From positions 1-64,000 of the forward strand of contig NZ_FYEK01000035.1 in NCBI RefSeq assembly GCF_900187885.1: a DNA stretch of 64,000 nucleotides, read 5' to 3'. The first letter of the stretch is position 1, and each line of letters opens with the position of its first letter. Shown one piece after another: positions 56,806 to 64,000 of the stretch. This stretch comes from Thermoflexus hugenholtzii JAD2. GTDB lineage: Bacteria > Chloroflexota > Anaerolineae > Thermoflexales > Thermoflexaceae. The notes under the pieces were generated by a model that had not been told where the DNA came from, did not search any database, and saw nothing but the letters and a program-made list of their open reading frames with translations. The translations under genes and the position numbers were made by a program.

Positions 56806-58515
56806 TTAGGCGGAGGCCTCCTGGACCAGACGGCGGACCGCAGGGGCGTCCTCCTGTGCCAGGGCGGCCTCGGCCAGGGCCTGAGCCTCCTGCAAGGACC
56901 AGCGGCGGACAGCGGCTTTGACCTCCGGCACGCGCACAGGGTTCACGCTGAGCTCCCGGACCCCCAGGCCGATCAGCACGGGCACCGCCTGGAGGTCCCC
57001 CGCCAGCTCCCCGCACACCCCTACCCACTTCCCGGTCCCCTCCACGGCGGCCGTCACCTGACGGATCAAGCGCAGCACCGCCGGATGCAGGCCGTCCGCC
57101 ATCCCGGCCACCGCCGGGTTGGTCCGATCCGCCGCCAGCACATACTGGGTGAGATCGTTGGTCCCGATGCTGAAGAAATCCACCCAGGGTCGGAAGTGCT
57201 CCGCCAGCAACGCCGCCGCGGGCACCTCCACCATCATCCCCACCTGCAGGTCCTCCGGCAAAGGGACTCCCTCCCGCGCCAGAGCGGCACGCACCTCGTC
57301 CAGAAGCGCCCGGAGCCAGCGGATCTCCTCCACGGTGCTAACCATCGGGAACATGATGCGAAGGGGAAAGCCCGCGCCGGCCCGCAGCAGCGCCCGGAGC
57401 TGCTGGCGAAGCAAATCCGGATGCTGGCGCGAAAGCCGCACGCCTCGCACTCCCAGGAAGGGATTGGGCTCGGAGGGCATCGGGAGGTAAGGCAGCGGCT
57501 TGTCCCCCCCGACGTCCAGGGTGCGCACCACCACCGGCTTCCCCCCCATGGCTTCCAGGAGCGCCCGGTAGGCGGCGACCTCTTCCTCCTCGGTAGGAGC
57601 GGCCGTCCGCTCGAGATAGAGGAACTCCGTGCGCAGCAGGCCGATGGCATCCGCTCCCCTTCGGAAAGCCTCCTGGGCGTCCTCCAGGCTCCCGACGTTG
57701 GCCGCCACCTCAATCCGGACTCCGTCGCGGGTGAGCGCCGGCTCGTGGGCGACGGCCTCCGCCTGCGCCCGCTCCGCCTGCCAGCGGGCCTGTCGCGCCC
57801 GGGCCTGGCGGATCACTTCCGGGGCGGGCTCGATCTCCACCCAGCCCGCCTCGCCATCCACCAGGAGCGTCGCGCCGTCGGGGACAGCTCGGAGCGCCGA
57901 TCCCACCGCCACCACGGCGGGCACTCCGAGCCGGCGGGCGAGGATGGCGGCGTGGGCCGTCGGCCCGCCCCCCTCAGTCACGAACGCCAGCACCCGCTGG
58001 GGATCCAGACGAACCGTTTCGGAAGGCAGCAGGTCGTCGGCGACAACGATCACCGGATGGGCCGGCATGGCCGGCTCCTCCGGAGCGCCCATCAAATGAC
58101 GGAGCACCCGGTTCCCCACATCCCGCACATCCGCTGCCCGGGCCTGGAAATAGGGGTCCGGCAACGCCGCCAGCTGGGCGACAAAAGCTTCCACCGCCTG
58201 GCTCCATGCGGCCTCAGCGGAAGCCCCTTCGGCCAGCGCCGCCTCCACCTGAGCCAAGAGCTCCGGATCCTGGAGCATCAGGGTCTGGGCCTCGAAGATG
58301 GCCAGCTCCTCCGGGGGCAGGTGATCGCGGTTCGCTTCCTGCAGCGCCGCCAGCTCGGCGGCGGCTTGCTGCCGGGCAGCCTCCAGCCGCGCCCGCTCCA
58401 CCGCGGGATCCTCCCCTCGTGCCCGCAGCGGGCCCCGCTCGGCCCGCCGGAACCACCAGGCCGGGCCGAGGGCGATCCCCGGGGAAGCCGGGAGACCCTG
58501 CAGGCGGCGGCTCAT
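56806..58515 (-). CDS. ptsI: PTS enzyme I (phosphoenolpyruvate-protein phosphotransferase)
   Basis: 569 residues, full length. It autophosphorylates from PEP and passes the phosphate to HPr. GLPASPGIALGPA begins the protein. The phospho-His is in GGGPTAHAAILARRLG (His188). FLRTEFLYL-type and EVPAAALLAEHF, DFFSIGTNDLTQY, and the Cys in WVGVCGELAGD mark the PEP-binding C-domain. The HPr gene stop overlaps its start by 4 nt. With DhaM and HPr upstream and no sugar EII in view, its likely job is to power a dihydroxyacetone kinase. Confidence 0.96.
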   Translation of the reverse strand: MSRRLQGLPASPGIALGPAWWFRRAERGPLRARGEDPAVERARLEAARQQAAAELAALQEANRDHLPPEELAIFEAQTLMLQDPELLAQVEAALAEGASAEAAWSQAVEAFVAQLAALPDPYFQARAADVRDVGNRVLRHLMGAPEEPAMPAHPVIVVADDLLPSETVRLDPQRVLAFVTEGGGPTAHAAILARRLGVPAVVAVGSALRAVPDGATLLVDGEAGWVEIEPAPEVIRQARARQARWQAERAQAEAVAHEPALTRDGVRIEVAANVGSLEDAQEAFRRGADAIGLLRTEFLYLERTAAPTEEEEVAAYRALLEAMGGKPVVVRTLDVGGDKPLPYLPMPSEPNPFLGVRGVRLSRQHPDLLRQQLRALLRAGAGFPLRIMFPMVSTVEEIRWLRALLDEVRAALAREGVPLPEDLQVGMMVEVPAAALLAEHFRPWVDFFSIGTNDLTQYVLAADRTNPAVAGMADGLHPAVLRLIRQVTAAVEGTGKWVGVCGELAGDLQAVPVLIGLGVRELSVNPVRVPEVKAAVRRWSLQEAQALAEAALAQEDAPAVRRLVQEASA

Positions 58516-58793
58516 CCCCCATCCTCCCCGAACCGCGACTCCACCAGGGCCTGGAGGGTGGCGATGGCCTCCTCCTCATCCGGCCCTTCGGCGACGATCT
58601 CGATCTCGTGGCCGTGCTCCGCCCCCAGGGTGAGCACCGCCAGGATCGCCTTGGCGTTCACCGGTGGGGTTCCCCGGGTGAGGTTCCGCACCGTGATGTT
58701 CGAACGAAAGCGCGCGGCCGTCTGGACGAACACCGCTGCCGGCCGCGCGTGTAACCCGACCGCGTTGGTGAGCGTGAGCCTCACCTGCCGCAT
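58512..58793 (-). CDS. ptsH: HPr-family phosphocarrier protein (DhaM-associated)
   Basis: 93 residues. His15 in NAVGLHARPAA is the phosphate-accepting site. VNAKAILAVLTLGAEHG aligns with the regulatory-loop segment of HPr, but the position of the regulatory Ser46 is Ala (residue 49 here). It therefore cannot be phosphorylated by HPr kinase. It lies between dhaM (27-nt gap) and ptsI (4-nt overlap), so it serves as the relay from EI to DhaM. Confidence 0.94.
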   Translation of the reverse strand: MRQVRLTLTNAVGLHARPAAVFVQTAARFRSNITVRNLTRGTPPVNAKAILAVLTLGAEHGHEIEIVAEGPDEEEAIATLQALVESRFGEDGG

Positions 58794-58820: not shown

Positions 58821-59222
58821 TCAACGGATCACCTTAGGCATCCGACAAGCCTCCACCGCCGAGGCTTCCACCTCCGTCGCCCCCTTCCCAATGGCGGCCT
58901 CCACGGCGGCGACGATGGCCCCCTCGACCAGGGGCGCCTGGCTGAGGAGGATACGCGGGCGGACCTCGGGGGGAAGCATCTCCATGGCCATCTGCGTTCC
59001 TATCACCGCGCTCCCCAGATCCATCAGGACCAGCACCTCATCCGCCTGGGAGAGGGCAGCCTCCAGGGCCTCGCGGATCCGCTCGACGTTGGTGCCCAGG
59101 GTCTGAGCGTCCAGGCCGCCCGCGGCGAAAATGGGGACACGGCCCTGGGCCATCTGGTCCGCCAATTCCTTCACCCCCTCCGCCAGCTTGGCGCTGTGGG
59201 CCACGATCACCAGGGCAACCAT
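58821..59222 (-). CDS. dhaM: DhaM, phosphotransferase subunit of PTS-dependent dihydroxyacetone kinase
   Basis: 133 residues, one EIIA-Man-like domain. The phospho-His is His9 in LVIVAHSAKLAEGVKELADQM (motif AHSxxLAEG). The GLDAQTLGTNVERI and VLVLMDLGSAVIGTQMAME segments are diagnostic of DhaM. It carries phosphate from HPr to the ADP bound in DhaL, which then phosphorylates dihydroxyacetone held by DhaK. The DhaK and DhaL genes are not in this window. E. coli fuses DhaM, HPr and EI domains in one chain; here they are three adjacent genes. Confidence 0.95.
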   Translation of the reverse strand: MVALVIVAHSAKLAEGVKELADQMAQGRVPIFAAGGLDAQTLGTNVERIREALEAALSQADEVLVLMDLGSAVIGTQMAMEMLPPEVRPRILLSQAPLVEGAIVAAVEAAIGKGATEVEASAVEACRMPKVIR

Positions 59223-59232
59223 GGAGGCTCCC

Positions 59233-59778
59233 TTATCGAGGCTGAGAGACAGGCTCGCCCACCAGGGCGGCCACCAGCTCCCGGCAGAAGGCCGGGATAT
59301 CCGGAACCACCCGACCCCAGACCAGATTGCCGTCCCGGAAGGCCGGCTCGTCGACCCAGATCGCCCCGGCGTTGATCAGGTCATCTTTGATCCCCAAACT
59401 GCCGGTGGCCCGATGACCCCGCACGATCCCGGCGGAGATCCCCACCTGGCCGCCGTGGCAGATCATGGCCACGATCTTGCCCTGGCGGTAGGCGTCGCGG
59501 ACCAGGCGGAGGACCGCCTCGTAACGGCGGAGCTTGTCGGGGGCCCAGCCGCCGGGAACCACCACGGCGTCGAAGTCCGTTGCGGAGACCTGATCGGCGG
59601 CCACATCCGCCTTCGCCGTCAACCCACCGCTCTTGCTGCGGACCACTTTCCCGGCCTCCAGGCCGACCACGGTCACCGAGGCCCCTTCTTCCTGCAGGCG
59701 CATCAGCGGGACCCAGAACTCCAGGTCCTCGAAACCTTCCTCCACCAGGATGGCCACCTTCTTGCCGCTTAAGCGCAT
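59233..59778 (-). CDS. DJ-1/PfpI-family protein (possible deglycase/glyoxalase)
   Basis: 181 residues. N-terminal VAILVEEGFEDLEFWVPLM carries the conserved Glu of the active site. The nucleophile elbow is VAMICHGGQVGISAG with Cys107 followed by His108. VVVPGGWAPDKLRR is a further hallmark. Family members act as intracellular proteases, glyoxalases or protein deglycases. In a glycerol/DHA operon, detoxification of methylglyoxal formed from dihydroxyacetone phosphate is a sensible guess but unproven. GGAGGTGA precedes the ATG. It is 10 nt before dhaM. Confidence 0.9.
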   Translation of the reverse strand: MRLSGKKVAILVEEGFEDLEFWVPLMRLQEEGASVTVVGLEAGKVVRSKSGGLTAKADVAADQVSATDFDAVVVPGGWAPDKLRRYEAVLRLVRDAYRQGKIVAMICHGGQVGISAGIVRGHRATGSLGIKDDLINAGAIWVDEPAFRDGNLVWGRVVPDIPAFCRELVAALVGEPVSQPR

Positions 59779-59827: not shown

Positions 59828-60460
59828 TCAGGCCCCTTCAACAGTGAGCGGCTGACAGGCCGGGCACGTTTCCACCTCCCATACCCGCTCCAGGGCCGCC
59901 GCGTCGATGGCCTCGGGGGGTCCCTCCCGGAAGCCGACGGCGCCGCACCGGCAAGCATACCAACCCGGGGGGATCTCCTCAAAAGATCGGGCGGGTCCCA
60001 GATCGATCTCCTCCACGCCTATGCGCCAGCGGGCATTGGTGAACAGCCGACGGCAACCCACAGCCCGGAGCTTGCGGATGTAGAGCGGGAACGAGGCGCA
60101 GTGTCGCATCAACAGCACCGCGGTGTCCACCGGGGGAAAGGGCCAGGTCCGCGCGTCGGCCCAGACCACGAGCAGGCGCCCCTCCCGGAGCGGGATCGGC
60201 CGCTCCCAGCGCAAGATGCCCGGGGAGAGGCCCAGGGCCTGCAGCCCTCGGGCCAGCACCGCCCACTGGCGCTCCACCGCGATCACCCGGGCCCCCGCCT
60301 CGACCATCCGCAGGGCCAGCCGCAGATCCCCGGCGCCGATTTCTAAGATGCACTCCCCGGGCCGGAGGCGCTCCAGGATCCTGCGGTAGGCCTCCTCCTC
60401 ATAGGGCGCCCACAGAGTTTCCCAGTCCAGCGCTATAAGCCTCGGGAGCGGATCAGCCAT
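59828..60460 (-). CDS. SAM-dependent methyltransferase-like protein with C-terminal Cys motifs
   Basis: 210 residues from ATG 60460. A class I methyltransferase motif ILEIGAGDLRLALRMVEAGA (~38-57) is followed by VIAVERQ. Later parts are unlike common families. The tail holds CRCGAVGF and ETCPACQPL, which could form a zinc ribbon. The start lies 28 nt inside the sdhD-like gene, so translation is coupled to the respiratory subunits. The substrate is unknown; RNA, protein or a quinone precursor are all possible. A much longer upstream extension of the frame is only the antisense-like continuation through the overlap. Confidence 0.7.
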   Translation of the reverse strand: MADPLPRLIALDWETLWAPYEEEAYRRILERLRPGECILEIGAGDLRLALRMVEAGARVIAVERQWAVLARGLQALGLSPGILRWERPIPLREGRLLVVWADARTWPFPPVDTAVLLMRHCASFPLYIRKLRAVGCRRLFTNARWRIGVEEIDLGPARSFEEIPPGWYACRCGAVGFREGPPEAIDAAALERVWEVETCPACQPLTVEGA

Positions 60461-60762
60461 GAGAGCCACATCCCATAGCCAATGATCCCCAGCGCCAGCA
60501 ACGTCAGGCCCCGCTTCAGCCAGCGGTCCGTCGCCGGGCGGATGCCCAGATCCAGGAGGATGGCCCGCACCCCCATCAGCGCGTGGGCGGTGACCACAAT
60601 CAGCAGCGCGATCTCCCAGGCGAAAACCAGGGGATGAGAGAGGTAGGCCACCACATCGCGGTAAGTGCGCAGACCGCCCTCCACCACGAAGTGATTGAAG
60701 ATCATATGCAGGGCCAGCAGGACCAGAAGAAGCAATCCGGTGAACGCCTGCCAGATCCACAT
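60433..60762 (-). CDS. SdhD-like membrane anchor subunit
   Basis: 109 residues with three transmembrane helices (FTGLLLLVLLALHMIFNHF; PLVFAWEIALLIVVTAHALMG; GLTLLALGIIGYGMWLSWLI, helix cores). His60 in TAHALMGVRAILLDL is the likely axial heme-b ligand and Asp71 is the conserved acidic residue of the SdhD pattern; His19 and His24 lie in the first helix. It is 26 nt after the sdhC-like gene and would pair with it. No SdhA gene accompanies it here. Confidence 0.85.
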   Translation of the reverse strand: MWIWQAFTGLLLLVLLALHMIFNHFVVEGGLRTYRDVVAYLSHPLVFAWEIALLIVVTAHALMGVRAILLDLGIRPATDRWLKRGLTLLALGIIGYGMWLSWLIRSRGL

Positions 60763-60788
60763 GGCGCGCCTCTTTCCGCAATCTTAAA

Positions 60789-61178
60789 TCATCCTGTCAG
60801 CGCGAAGATGGCGTAGACCGCCACCCCGGTGAGCAGCAGGGTCAACGCCATCACCCCCCAGAACAAACGGGCCTGGAGGGGCACCCCGATCCCCAGCCCC
60901 AGCAACGTCACCCGGACGCCGTTGAGGGCGTGATAGAGCAGGCCCAGGATCAGGATCCCGTCCAGCGTCAGGAACAGGGGGGATTTGGCGGTGGCGATGA
61001 AGGCGTCCCAGGCCTCCGGCCCCTGGGCCAGCAGGCGAAGGACGTACAGGTGGAGGAACAGGTAGATCACCAGGCCGATGCCGGTCAGCCGCATCAGCAA
61101 GAAGGCGAGCCCTCCTTCCCGCCTCCCCCGGAGATCCGCCCATCCCCGGGCTCGCTTCCAGCGCGGTTCCGTCGTCAT
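60789..61178 (-). CDS. SdhC-like cytochrome b556-type membrane anchor subunit
   Basis: 129 residues from ATG 61178 (4-nt overlap with the iron-sulfur gene). Three transmembrane helices. LLMRLTGIGLVIYLFLHLY carries Arg30 and His43, and LYHALNGVRVTLL carries His83, matching the quinone-site Arg and heme-ligand His of SdhC proteins. A basic N-terminus faces the cytoplasm. It should form the membrane domain with the SdhD-like subunit. Confidence 0.88.
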   Translation of the reverse strand: MTTEPRWKRARGWADLRGRREGGLAFLLMRLTGIGLVIYLFLHLYVLRLLAQGPEAWDAFIATAKSPLFLTLDGILILGLLYHALNGVRVTLLGLGIGVPLQARLFWGVMALTLLLTGVAVYAIFALTG

Positions 61179-61894
61179 CGTCCACCTCCCAGCCAGCGCC
61201 GCAACTTCTCCGCCAACAGGTAGCGACGCAGCCGTCCGATGGCCGCAGCCGGATCTACGTTCGAGGGGCAGACGGCCGTGCACTCCATCGCGGAGTGGCA
61301 GCGCCAAACCCCGTGGGGATCATCCGCCAGAGCGAGGAGCCGTCCACGGTCCGCCCCTCGGGGCTCGGCCAGCATGCGCTCGATGGCGGCTAGGGTCGCC
61401 GGCCCCAGATAGGCCTCGTCGGCGGCCATCACCGGGCACGCCGAAAGACACAGGCCGCACTCGATGCAATCCTCAAACCGCGTGGCCTTTTCCACCCCTT
61501 CCGGCAGCGGGCGGTCGGCCGTGAGCTCGTCCCGCCGGATGACAGCGAAGCCCACGGCCGACATCCGGCGCATCATCGGTGACACGTCCACCAGCAGGTC
61601 GCCGAGCCAGGGGAAATGCCGCAACGGCTCCACGACAATCGGGCGATCGGGAGCGAACTCCCGGAGCGGTGTGATGCACATCAGCCGCTCCCGTCCGTTC
61701 ACCCGGACCCCGCACGCCCCGCACGAGGCGTGGTGACAGGCATGGCGGAAGAGCAGGTCGCGGTCCTGCTCCGCCCAGATCTTCTCCACCGCGTCGATGA
61801 GGTAGGCCTCGGCCGGGAGCTCCACCTGATACGTTTGCAGGCGGGGCGGGTTTCCCGGGCGGCCCCGCAGCAGGCGCAGCTGCCATGTGGGCAT
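61175..61894 (-). CDS. SdhB/FrdB-type iron-sulfur subunit
   Basis: 239 residues. The ferredoxin-like domain binds 2Fe-2S through Cys53, Cys58, Cys61 and Cys73 (CHHASCGAC). The C-domain has CIECGLCLSACP (Cys143, 146, 149, 153) for 4Fe-4S and CHSAMECTAVCP (Cys199, 205, 209) for 3Fe-4S. All three clusters of the succinate dehydrogenase/fumarate reductase wire are therefore present. It lies 20 nt after a GlpA-type dehydrogenase gene and overlaps the sdhC-like gene, so its electron donor in this operon is most likely that flavoprotein, not SdhA. Confidence 0.9.
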   Translation of the reverse strand: MPTWQLRLLRGRPGNPPRLQTYQVELPAEAYLIDAVEKIWAEQDRDLLFRHACHHASCGACGVRVNGRERLMCITPLREFAPDRPIVVEPLRHFPWLGDLLVDVSPMMRRMSAVGFAVIRRDELTADRPLPEGVEKATRFEDCIECGLCLSACPVMAADEAYLGPATLAAIERMLAEPRGADRGRLLALADDPHGVWRCHSAMECTAVCPSNVDPAAAIGRLRRYLLAEKLRRWLGGGR

Positions 61895-61914
61895 GCCGGT
61901 ATCCTCCGGTGCGA

Positions 61915-63081
61915 TCAGGTCAACTCATAGAAGGCCCGATAGGGGAGCAGCGGCACCTCATGGGTCCGGCATGGGATGGAGAGACCCAGCTTGGCGCACA
62001 CGACGTCGACGACCTTCTCAGCCATCGCCCGGGCGGTGGTCATCTTCCCCCCGGTGATGGTCACAAAGCCCTCCACGCCGTCGGCCGCGTGGTCGAAGCA
62101 CTCGAAGGTTCGGGAGAGCTCGCGGCCGTCGGCGGCCACCCCCCGCCGCCCCACCAAGGGCCGGGCCACCGCGAAGACCCCCCGGATCCCTCCTTGGGTG
62201 TAGCCGGGGATGAACCGTTCGGCGCTTGCCAGGAGCAGGCGGACGTGGTCCTCCGGGATCGGGATGAAATCAGGGTCTTCCACCTTCCAGGAGGTGGTTC
62301 CGATGATGGCCGTGCGCCGCTGGGGGACGATGATGTCCCCGTCCCCCGGGAGGTTCAAGCGGTTGATCACCATACGGTTCCAGCGCCGGCCGACGGAGAT
62401 CATCACCCCCGCGGTGGGGACCACGGGCACGTCCACCCCGGCCATCGCCGCGATCCTCCCGGCCCACGGCCCAGCGGCGTTGATCACCACGTCCGCGCCG
62501 ATGGTTCGCTGCTGGCCGGTCCGGCGATCCCGCACCTTCACGCCGGCCACCGTCCGACCCTGGAAGACCATGTCCACCACCTCGGTATAGGTGAGGACGG
62601 TCGCCCCGTTGCGCCGAGCGGTGGCCAGGAAGGAGAGGCAGAAGCGCAACGGCTCGAACACCCCATCGGGGACCTGGATGGCGGCGCGGATGCCGGGGTT
62701 GAGATGGGGCTCCAGGGCCAGGGCCTGCCGCACCGGGATCTCCCGGGCCGGGATGCCGCACTCCTCACAGGCGGCGAGGAACCGCTCCTTGAAGGAGAGG
62801 TCCCCTTCGTCCAGGGCGACAAAGAGTCCATCGTTGAGCTCCAGGGCGTCCGGCATGATCCGGCGCAGGATCATGTTCTCCGCGATGCACTCCCGGGCGG
62901 ACTCGGGGTCTTTCATGGCGTAACGCCCCCCGGAGTGGAGCAGACAGTGATTCCGCCCCGAGGTCCCGGAGGCCACTTCCCCGCGCTCCACCACCGTCAC
63001 CCGGAAGCCCCGGAGGGCCAGGTCGTGGGCGGTGGCCGCCCCGGTGGATCCGGCGCCGATCACCACCACGTGATAAGCCAT
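61915..63081 (-). CDS. FAD-dependent glycerol-3-phosphate dehydrogenase, GlpA type (short form)
   Basis: 388 residues. The dinucleotide motif VVVIGAGSTGAATAHDL starts the chain. GTSGRNHCLLHSGGRYA, DPESARECIAENMILRRI and LEPHLNPGIRAAIQVPDGVFEP are GlpA-like signatures. It oxidises glycerol-3-phosphate to dihydroxyacetone phosphate. E. coli GlpA continues for ~150 residues with a Cys-rich BFD-like domain; this protein stops before it. There is no GlpB or GlpC gene next door; instead SdhB-, SdhC- and SdhD-type genes follow directly. GGGAGGA precedes the ATG. It lies behind a terminator that separates it from glpK. Confidence 0.9.
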   Translation of the reverse strand: MAYHVVVIGAGSTGAATAHDLALRGFRVTVVERGEVASGTSGRNHCLLHSGGRYAMKDPESARECIAENMILRRIMPDALELNDGLFVALDEGDLSFKERFLAACEECGIPAREIPVRQALALEPHLNPGIRAAIQVPDGVFEPLRFCLSFLATARRNGATVLTYTEVVDMVFQGRTVAGVKVRDRRTGQQRTIGADVVINAAGPWAGRIAAMAGVDVPVVPTAGVMISVGRRWNRMVINRLNLPGDGDIIVPQRRTAIIGTTSWKVEDPDFIPIPEDHVRLLLASAERFIPGYTQGGIRGVFAVARPLVGRRGVAADGRELSRTFECFDHAADGVEGFVTITGGKMTTARAMAEKVVDVVCAKLGLSIPCRTHEVPLLPYRAFYELT

Positions 63082-63166: not shown

Positions 63167-64000
63167 TTAGAACTCCACCCATCCGAAGGAGCGCTCCACC
63201 GCCTTCTTCCATCCAGCGTAGAGCTTCTCCCGGGTCTCCGGATCCATCTTCGGCAACCAGCGCTTATCCTCCTTCCAGTATTGACGGATCTGCTCCGGGC
63301 CGCTCCAGAAGCCCACGGCCATCCCGGCGGCGTAGGCCGCGCCCAGGGAGGTGGTTTCCTGGATCACCGGCCGCACCACCGGCACCCCCAGGATGTCAGC
63401 CTGGAACTGCATCAGCAGCTCGTTGCGCACCATCCCCCCGTCCACGCGCAGCTCGGCCAGATGGATCCCGGAGTCCGCATACATGGCGTCGAACACGTCC
63501 CGGGTCTGGTAAGCCGTGGCCTCCAGGACGGCGCGGGCCAGGTGGCCCTTGTTGATGTAGCGGGTGAGCCCCACGATCACGCCCCGGGCGTCCAACCGCC
63601 AGTAGGGGGCGAAGGCGCCGGAGAAGAAGGGCACGAAGTAGATGCCCCCGTTGTCCTCCACCGTGCGGGCCAGGTCCTCCACCTCCGCGGAGGTCTTGAT
63701 CAGGCCCAGGTTGTCCCGCAGCCACTGGACCAGAGCGCCGGTGATGGCGATGGAGCCTTCCAGGGCGTAGATGCAGGGGCCGTCCCCGAATTGATAGGCC
63801 ACGGTGGTCAGCAGGCCGCTCTTGGAAGGGACGATGTTCGTGCCGGTGTTGAGAAGGAGGAAACAGCCGGTGCCGTAAGTGTTCTTGGCCATCCCGACAT
63901 CCAGGCCGGCCTGGCCGACCAGAGCCGCCTGCTGATCCCCCAGGTCCCCGCACACCGGCACCTCCGCCCCGAACAGCCCGCTCTTCGGCGTCTTCCCGTA
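63167..64000 (-). CDS. glpK: Glycerol kinase, C-terminal part (5' end beyond window edge)
   Basis: 278 codons are visible and the frame is open to the window edge. [52 protein letters not shown] and [17 protein letters not shown] are GlpK signatures of the FGGY kinase fold. It phosphorylates glycerol to glycerol-3-phosphate, the substrate of the dehydrogenase encoded downstream. The loop before GAEVPVCGD reads KSGLF, without the His that HPr phosphorylates in Firmicutes glycerol kinases. The N-terminal half lies outside this window. Confidence 0.96.

Follow-up and report, generated by a model that had tools for sequence, protein, structure and literature searches.

A GlpA-type flavoprotein encoded with SdhB-, SdhC- and SdhD-type subunits in Thermoflexus hugenholtzii: a predicted glycerol-3-phosphate:quinone oxidoreductase on succinate dehydrogenase parts

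The first 64,000 nucleotides of contig NZ_FYEK01000035.1 from Thermoflexus hugenholtzii JAD2 (assembly GCF_900187885.1), hereafter the window, carry a four-gene block on the minus strand (60433-63081) in which a gene for a GlpA-type flavoprotein, a predicted glycerol-3-phosphate (G3P) dehydrogenase subunit, is followed by genes for an iron-sulfur subunit and two membrane anchors of the types found in succinate dehydrogenase (SDH). When the coordinates of glpA, sdhB, sdhC and sdhD were re-derived, the order and spacing given in the initial annotation were found to be right, with a 20-nt gap between glpA and sdhB, a 4-nt overlap (ATGA) between sdhB and sdhC, and a 26-nt gap between sdhC and sdhD. 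The four genes are listed first in Table 1, followed by the neighboring features.

Table 1. The hybrid block and neighboring features in the window
Feature	Position	Strand	Basis
glpA-type flavin adenine dinucleotide (FAD) protein, 388 aa, predicted G3P dehydrogenase subunit	61915..63081	-	TIGR03377, PF01266
sdhB-type iron-sulfur subunit, 239 aa	61175..61894	-	TIGR00384, PF13085, PF13183
sdhC-type membrane anchor, 129 aa, predicted haem ligands H43 and H83	60789..61178	-	PF01127, TIGR02970
sdhD-type membrane anchor, 109 aa, predicted haem ligands H19 and H60	60433..60762	-	PF01127
glpK, glycerol kinase, 3' part	63167..64000	-	NF000756/TIGR01311 matches
methyltransferase-like protein	59828..60460	-	weak matches to methyltransferase models
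DJ-1/PfpI-family protein	59233..59778	-	TIGR01382, 159 bits
dhaM, phosphoryl donor of dihydroxyacetone kinase linked to the phosphotransferase system (PTS)	58821..59222	-	TIGR02364, 129.5 bits (cut-off 98.25)
HPr-like ptsH	58512..58793	-	operon position and conservation in relatives
ptsI, PTS enzyme I	56806..58515	-	sequence and conservation in relatives

The GlpA of the window is a GlpA without the C-terminal BFD domain, as its match to TIGR03377 covers only positions 1-378 of 530 (456 bits; cut-off 552.8); the earlier claim that the Cys-rich C-terminal domain is lacking is thus borne out. In canonical GlpA this C-terminal region carries a BFD [2Fe-2S] domain, according to PMC11962113. All 69 GlpAs encoded next to sdhB in relatives (see below) likewise terminate at most 9 residues beyond the DAO domain. 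The part that is present has the DAO fold (PF01266) together with the conserved Arg, Tyr and Lys residues of FAD-dependent G3P dehydrogenases. Among 67 sequences, R53 and Y54 were found in all 67 and R307 and K346 in 66 each, residues whose equivalents in the GlpD structures we take to hold the phosphate of G3P. These positions align with the R-Y (R53/Y54), R-P-L (R307) and G-G-K (K346) motifs of solved GlpD/GlpO (3da1/2rgh). An AlphaFold2 model of GlpA built from 8 sequences was too poor for use (mean predicted local distance difference test score, 59.6).

The SdhB-type subunit scored above the TIGR00384 (dhsB) cut-off (181 bits versus 88), and the three SdhB clusters initially proposed were supported by the presence and invariance of all 11 cluster cysteines, including the ligands of: (i) [2Fe-2S], C53, C58, C61, and C73; (ii) [4Fe-4S], C143, C146, C149, and C209; and (iii) [3Fe-4S], C153, C199, and C205. 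Residue 202 was Ala, Ser, Val, or Ile and hence non-Cys, as in [3Fe-4S] proteins; a fourth Cys at this position would turn the third cluster into [4Fe-4S]. Hybrid-specific SdhB residues were also considered as evidence of an interface and were set aside, as they displayed no concentration in the flavoprotein-facing domain (3/108 versus 3/131 positions). Both anchors matched Sdh_cyt (PF01127; SdhC at 45.7 and SdhD at 37.8-37.9 bits, cut-off 25.8), with SdhC falling just below the TIGR02970 cut-off (52.0 versus 52.3 bits); these PF01127 matches and the invariant histidines agree with their assignment as haem-b anchors of SdhC and SdhD type. SdhC H43, H83, and R30 were invariant in 67 sequences, as were SdhD H19, H24, H60, and D71 in 66. 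SdhC H83 aligns with H84 of Escherichia coli SdhC, and SdhD H60 with H71 of E. coli SdhD, both of which we take to be haem ligands. The second His of each anchor, SdhC H43 and SdhD H19, is missing from the single-haem E. coli enzyme; similar histidines also occur in the ordinary SDH anchors of the same genome. In two-haem complex II anchors, four histidines are present, two per subunit, in successive helices. Since a further invariant His is found in both SdhC and SdhD, the sequences suggest that a two-haem anchor is likelier than a one-haem anchor.

Conservation of the block was examined by an SdhB search of one genome per species (84,980 species), which yielded 217 relatives; the 80 best of these were retrieved. 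glpA was located directly upstream of sdhB in 69 of these 80, so that the possibility of relatives keeping the sdh genes without the glpA neighbor was not borne out; sdhA stood beside this type of sdhB at none of the 80 loci. The other 11 included three loci at contig ends, two of which had a visible glpA fragment, and eight in which sdhB stood alone. The closest relatives of the window were Thermoflexus genomes, and the glpA-sdhB-sdhC-sdhD block was found in this genus as well as in several other families of the class. In most relatives glpK was the direct neighbor of the block; the order glpK-glpA-sdhB-sdhC-sdhD was observed in 12 of the class genomes, and in one more genome the block was split over contig ends. 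When the SdhB query was compared across the class, the matches fell into two separated sets, one of the hybrid type (43-100% identity) and one of ordinary SDH (about 30-40%), with several genomes holding both. An assembly artefact, or the chance juxtaposition of an sdhBCD fragment and glpA, has a negligible probability: the same order recurred in many independent assemblies, three of them on single or megabase-sized contigs, and about 70 genomes retain the block in full, which rules out chance neighborhood, while no point in favor of such an origin was found.

In phylogenetic trees, hybrid and lone SdhBs formed one clade (100/100), with a stem length of 1.07 changes per site, when compared with the ordinary SdhBs found in E. 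coli and in the same phylum, and the hybrid GlpAs formed one clade (100/100) when compared with canonical GlpAs of E. coli, of haloarchaea, and of the GlpABC loci of Chloroflexota. The simplest reading would be a single assembly of the chimera among the bacteria sampled, followed by its inheritance as one block. Natural GlpA-SdhB fusions were not detected among the fetched loci, and no hybrid loci were seen in plasmid and phage collections, where the SdhB-like plasmid genes inspected belonged to fumarate reductase or other neighborhoods. Among 151 evenly drawn Chloroflexota genomes, hybrid-type SdhB (E <= 1e-50) was present in 7 and GlpB above cut-off in 26 (about one sixth), and a single genome, G178, held both among the genomes listed in both searches. 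Most carriers of the hybrid are Chloroflexota. A few metagenome-assembled genomes labelled Bacillota, Dormibacterota, Actinomycetota, or Streptosporangiaceae were also found to carry hybrid loci nested among those of Chloroflexota, five such loci being in genomes labelled Dormibacterota, Actinomycetota, or Bacillota; these would be due either to horizontal transfer or to mis-binned contigs.

The rest of the genome was examined for other partners of these subunits. A second, complete set, sdhC-sdhD-sdhA-sdhB, was identified on contig C78, with its SdhA at 883 bits (cut-off 727); the genome therefore does not hold a lone sdhA that would need the anchors of the block. The absence of SdhA, GlpB, and GlpC that had been noted at the locus was found to extend further in the case of the latter two, as GlpC had no match above cut-off anywhere in the genome and the best GlpB match reached 22 bits against a cut-off of 174, over a 31-residue N-terminal stretch only. 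These data bear on the possibility that GlpA acts alone, in the manner of GlpD or of free-standing truncated GlpAs, with sdhB, sdhC, and sdhD serving a second SDH or fumarate reductase that has a distant SdhA. Single truncated GlpA genes without adjacent GlpB/C or SdhBCD do exist, as on Rubrobacter and Halorussus plasmids, and the lone-sdhB clade shows that glpA and sdhB can separate. Against this, a dedicated sdhB, sdhC, and sdhD already accompany the SdhA gene of the genome, the neighborhood counts favor glpA over sdhA, and the SdhB of the block falls in a clade distinct from the ordinary-SDH SdhBs of the same phylum. Independent action of GlpA is thus considered improbable.

Taken together, the four genes very probably encode a membrane-bound sn-glycerol-3-phosphate:menaquinone oxidoreductase. 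Upstream, past the end of the window, are the full glpK (503 aa; above cut-off at L061:5171-6682), dhaL, dhaK, and a gene for a glpF-like MIP channel, giving the operon order glpF-dhaK-dhaL-glpK-glpA-sdhB-sdhC-sdhD-...-dhaM-ptsH-ptsI; the operon as a whole is one of glycerol and dihydroxyacetone metabolism. In the proposed pathway, GlpF would admit glycerol, GlpK would convert it to G3P, and the truncated GlpA would oxidize G3P to dihydroxyacetone phosphate (DHAP) at its FAD. Because GlpA is without the BFD domain and the genome is without GlpB and GlpC, the FAD would pass electrons straight to the [2Fe-2S] cluster of SdhB, as SdhA does in complex II. From there, electrons would travel by way of [4Fe-4S] and then [3Fe-4S] to a quinone site where SdhB, SdhC, and SdhD meet, and to haem b, which would be housed in an SdhC/SdhD anchor with four His and probably two haems. 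The potential of G3P/DHAP lies well below that of menaquinone (about -190 versus -75 mV), so electron flow from G3P to menaquinone would be downhill. The placement of GlpA where SdhA would sit on SdhBCD, as initially proposed, is well supported by comparative genomics; assembly and activity of the complex, the docking of GlpA on SdhB, the substrate, the type of quinone, the direction of the reaction, and the number of haems are inferred.

The same complex could instead act on another substrate, either oxidizing glycerol itself, to give dihydroxyacetone for phosphorylation by DhaKLM, or oxidizing another polyol phosphate. DhaKLM is encoded in the same operon and acts on dihydroxyacetone rather than DHAP, in keeping with the former. 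However, R53, Y54, R307, and K346, the counterparts of the phosphate-holding residues of GlpD/GlpO, are kept in nearly all sequences, glpK directly adjoins the block in most relatives, and GlpA is the best family model by a wide margin, such that a different substrate is rated as improbable. Four further points weigh against a G3P:menaquinone oxidoreductase formed by this block. First, SdhA (FAD_binding_2) and GlpA (DAO) belong to different families, and the predicted docking surface of GlpA must therefore differ from that of SdhA. Second, a GlpD-like protein is also encoded on contig C78 (L011:1453-3006), so the locus is not the sole candidate for a G3P dehydrogenase in the genome. Third, loss of the dedicated anchors is possible, as the eight lone-sdhB loci demonstrate. 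Fourth, glycerol use by the cultured species was not found in PMC8129789, a study of Thermoflexus metabolism in which both succinate dehydrogenase and G3P are mentioned just in passing.

The initial annotation knew of no enzyme composed of these subunits in the literature, a statement since superseded, as a GlpA-SdhBCD complex has already been drawn for Thermofilum (PMC11962113, Commun Biol 2025). In that paper, Thermofilum-related archaea are reported to have glpA followed by counterparts of SDH b, c, and d, and the complex is drawn for T. pendens as a prediction. Both sets thus comprise glpA and then sdhB, sdhC, and sdhD, and for both a G3P dehydrogenase is proposed that relies on SDH-type subunits for its anchoring and wiring; both are predicted, and they differ in that the present set is bacterial and the Thermofilum set archaeal. 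The G3P dehydrogenase of Sulfolobus acidocaldarius covered in the same paper likewise pairs a truncated GlpA with a membrane partner other than GlpBC, but that partner is CoxG, which is there concluded to anchor the enzyme and to be dispensable for electron transfer. With GlpABC (of E. coli, haloarchaea, and about one sixth of the sampled Chloroflexota), the block shares a homologous catalytic GlpA, the same predicted reaction, and menaquinone as the pool fed, but its GlpA is without the BFD [2Fe-2S] domain, GlpB is missing, and SdhB/C/D stand in place of the CCG-type GlpC. With complex II (succinate:quinone oxidoreductase/fumarate reductase), it shares homology in the iron-sulfur subunit and in the pair of haem-b anchors, but the flavoprotein is a DAO-family GlpA rather than SdhA/FrdA and the SdhB forms its own clade. 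No other literature on bacterial GlpA-SdhBCD was found in openly accessible papers, with subscription papers and preprints outside the search. New here are the bacterial occurrence and its breadth, the monophyly, the diheme signature, and an unlinked side branch without dedicated anchors.

The GlpA-SdhBCD design is common in bacteria, and Thermoflexus and many relatives appear to use it to respire glycerol. The iron-sulfur and membrane parts of complex II would then be a reusable respiratory module that accepts an unrelated flavoprotein, and this reuse would have arisen or spread in bacteria too, beyond one archaeal group. The statement in PMC11962113 that canonical bacterial glpA co-occurs consistently with glpB and glpC stands corrected: bacterial glpA does not always accompany them. 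Genes of this kind are also liable to be misannotated as a second succinate dehydrogenase, and the thermophilic bacterial example allows the docking of GlpA on SdhB to be tested directly.

The eight lone sdhB loci, which have no glpA, sdhC, or sdhD neighbor, were examined for the fate of the missing partners. Their SdhBs form a single branch nested inside the hybrid clade. At one of these loci, an operon of the order dhaK-glpK-sdhB-dhaL-dhaM (L109:1477-8178), the lone sdhB lies between glpK and dhaL, in the place occupied by the whole glpA-sdhBCD block in relatives. A hybrid-type truncated GlpA was found to be encoded elsewhere in all five lone-sdhB genomes searched (split across contigs in one), and no anchors were detected beside the unlinked GlpA in the four genomes whose neighborhoods were inspected. 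The retention of both genes in a genome even when unlinked supports GlpA and SdhB as a functional pair. Anchor genes in the four lone-sdhB genomes searched numbered one or two each, and in two of these genomes the anchors sit in the ordinary sdh operon, adjoining its sdhA and sdhB. At SdhB residue 200 (the E. coli H207 position), His was present in 34/34 anchor-linked sequences and Arg in 8/8 unlinked sequences, and the ordinary SdhB also has Arg at this position in the two lone-sdhB genomes checked. We speculate, as an idea on balance unlikely, that SdhBCD may be an interchangeable quinone-reducing socket and that the unlinked GlpA-SdhB pair may use the SdhCD of ordinary SDH, with one anchor serving two flavoproteins. 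The His-to-Arg change would fit shared SdhCD anchors, although it happened just once in evolution. If true, GlpA would have a dedicated SdhBCD copy in most carriers and a shared SDH anchor in the side branch.

Additional observations were made on genes near the block and on GlpA-like proteins elsewhere. The methyltransferase-like gene at the 3' side of sdhD was found to often adjoin the hybrid block across Chloroflexota relatives, and the DJ-1/PfpI-family protein may possibly contribute to methylglyoxal or glycation defence alongside triose-phosphate metabolism. The stand-alone truncated GlpA homologue of the Rubrobacter indicoceani plasmid (NZ_CP031116.1), which is without GlpB/C or SdhBCD, has as neighbors two sn-glycerol-1-phosphate dehydrogenase genes, a dihydroxyacetone kinase, and FGGY kinases. 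On contig C78, a gene for a GlcD/FAD_binding_4-type protein precedes the GlpD-like gene (L011:1-3006; about 83438-86443 of the contig), and we would guess that the two may be a pair of the alkyl-DHAP-synthase kind serving ether lipids.

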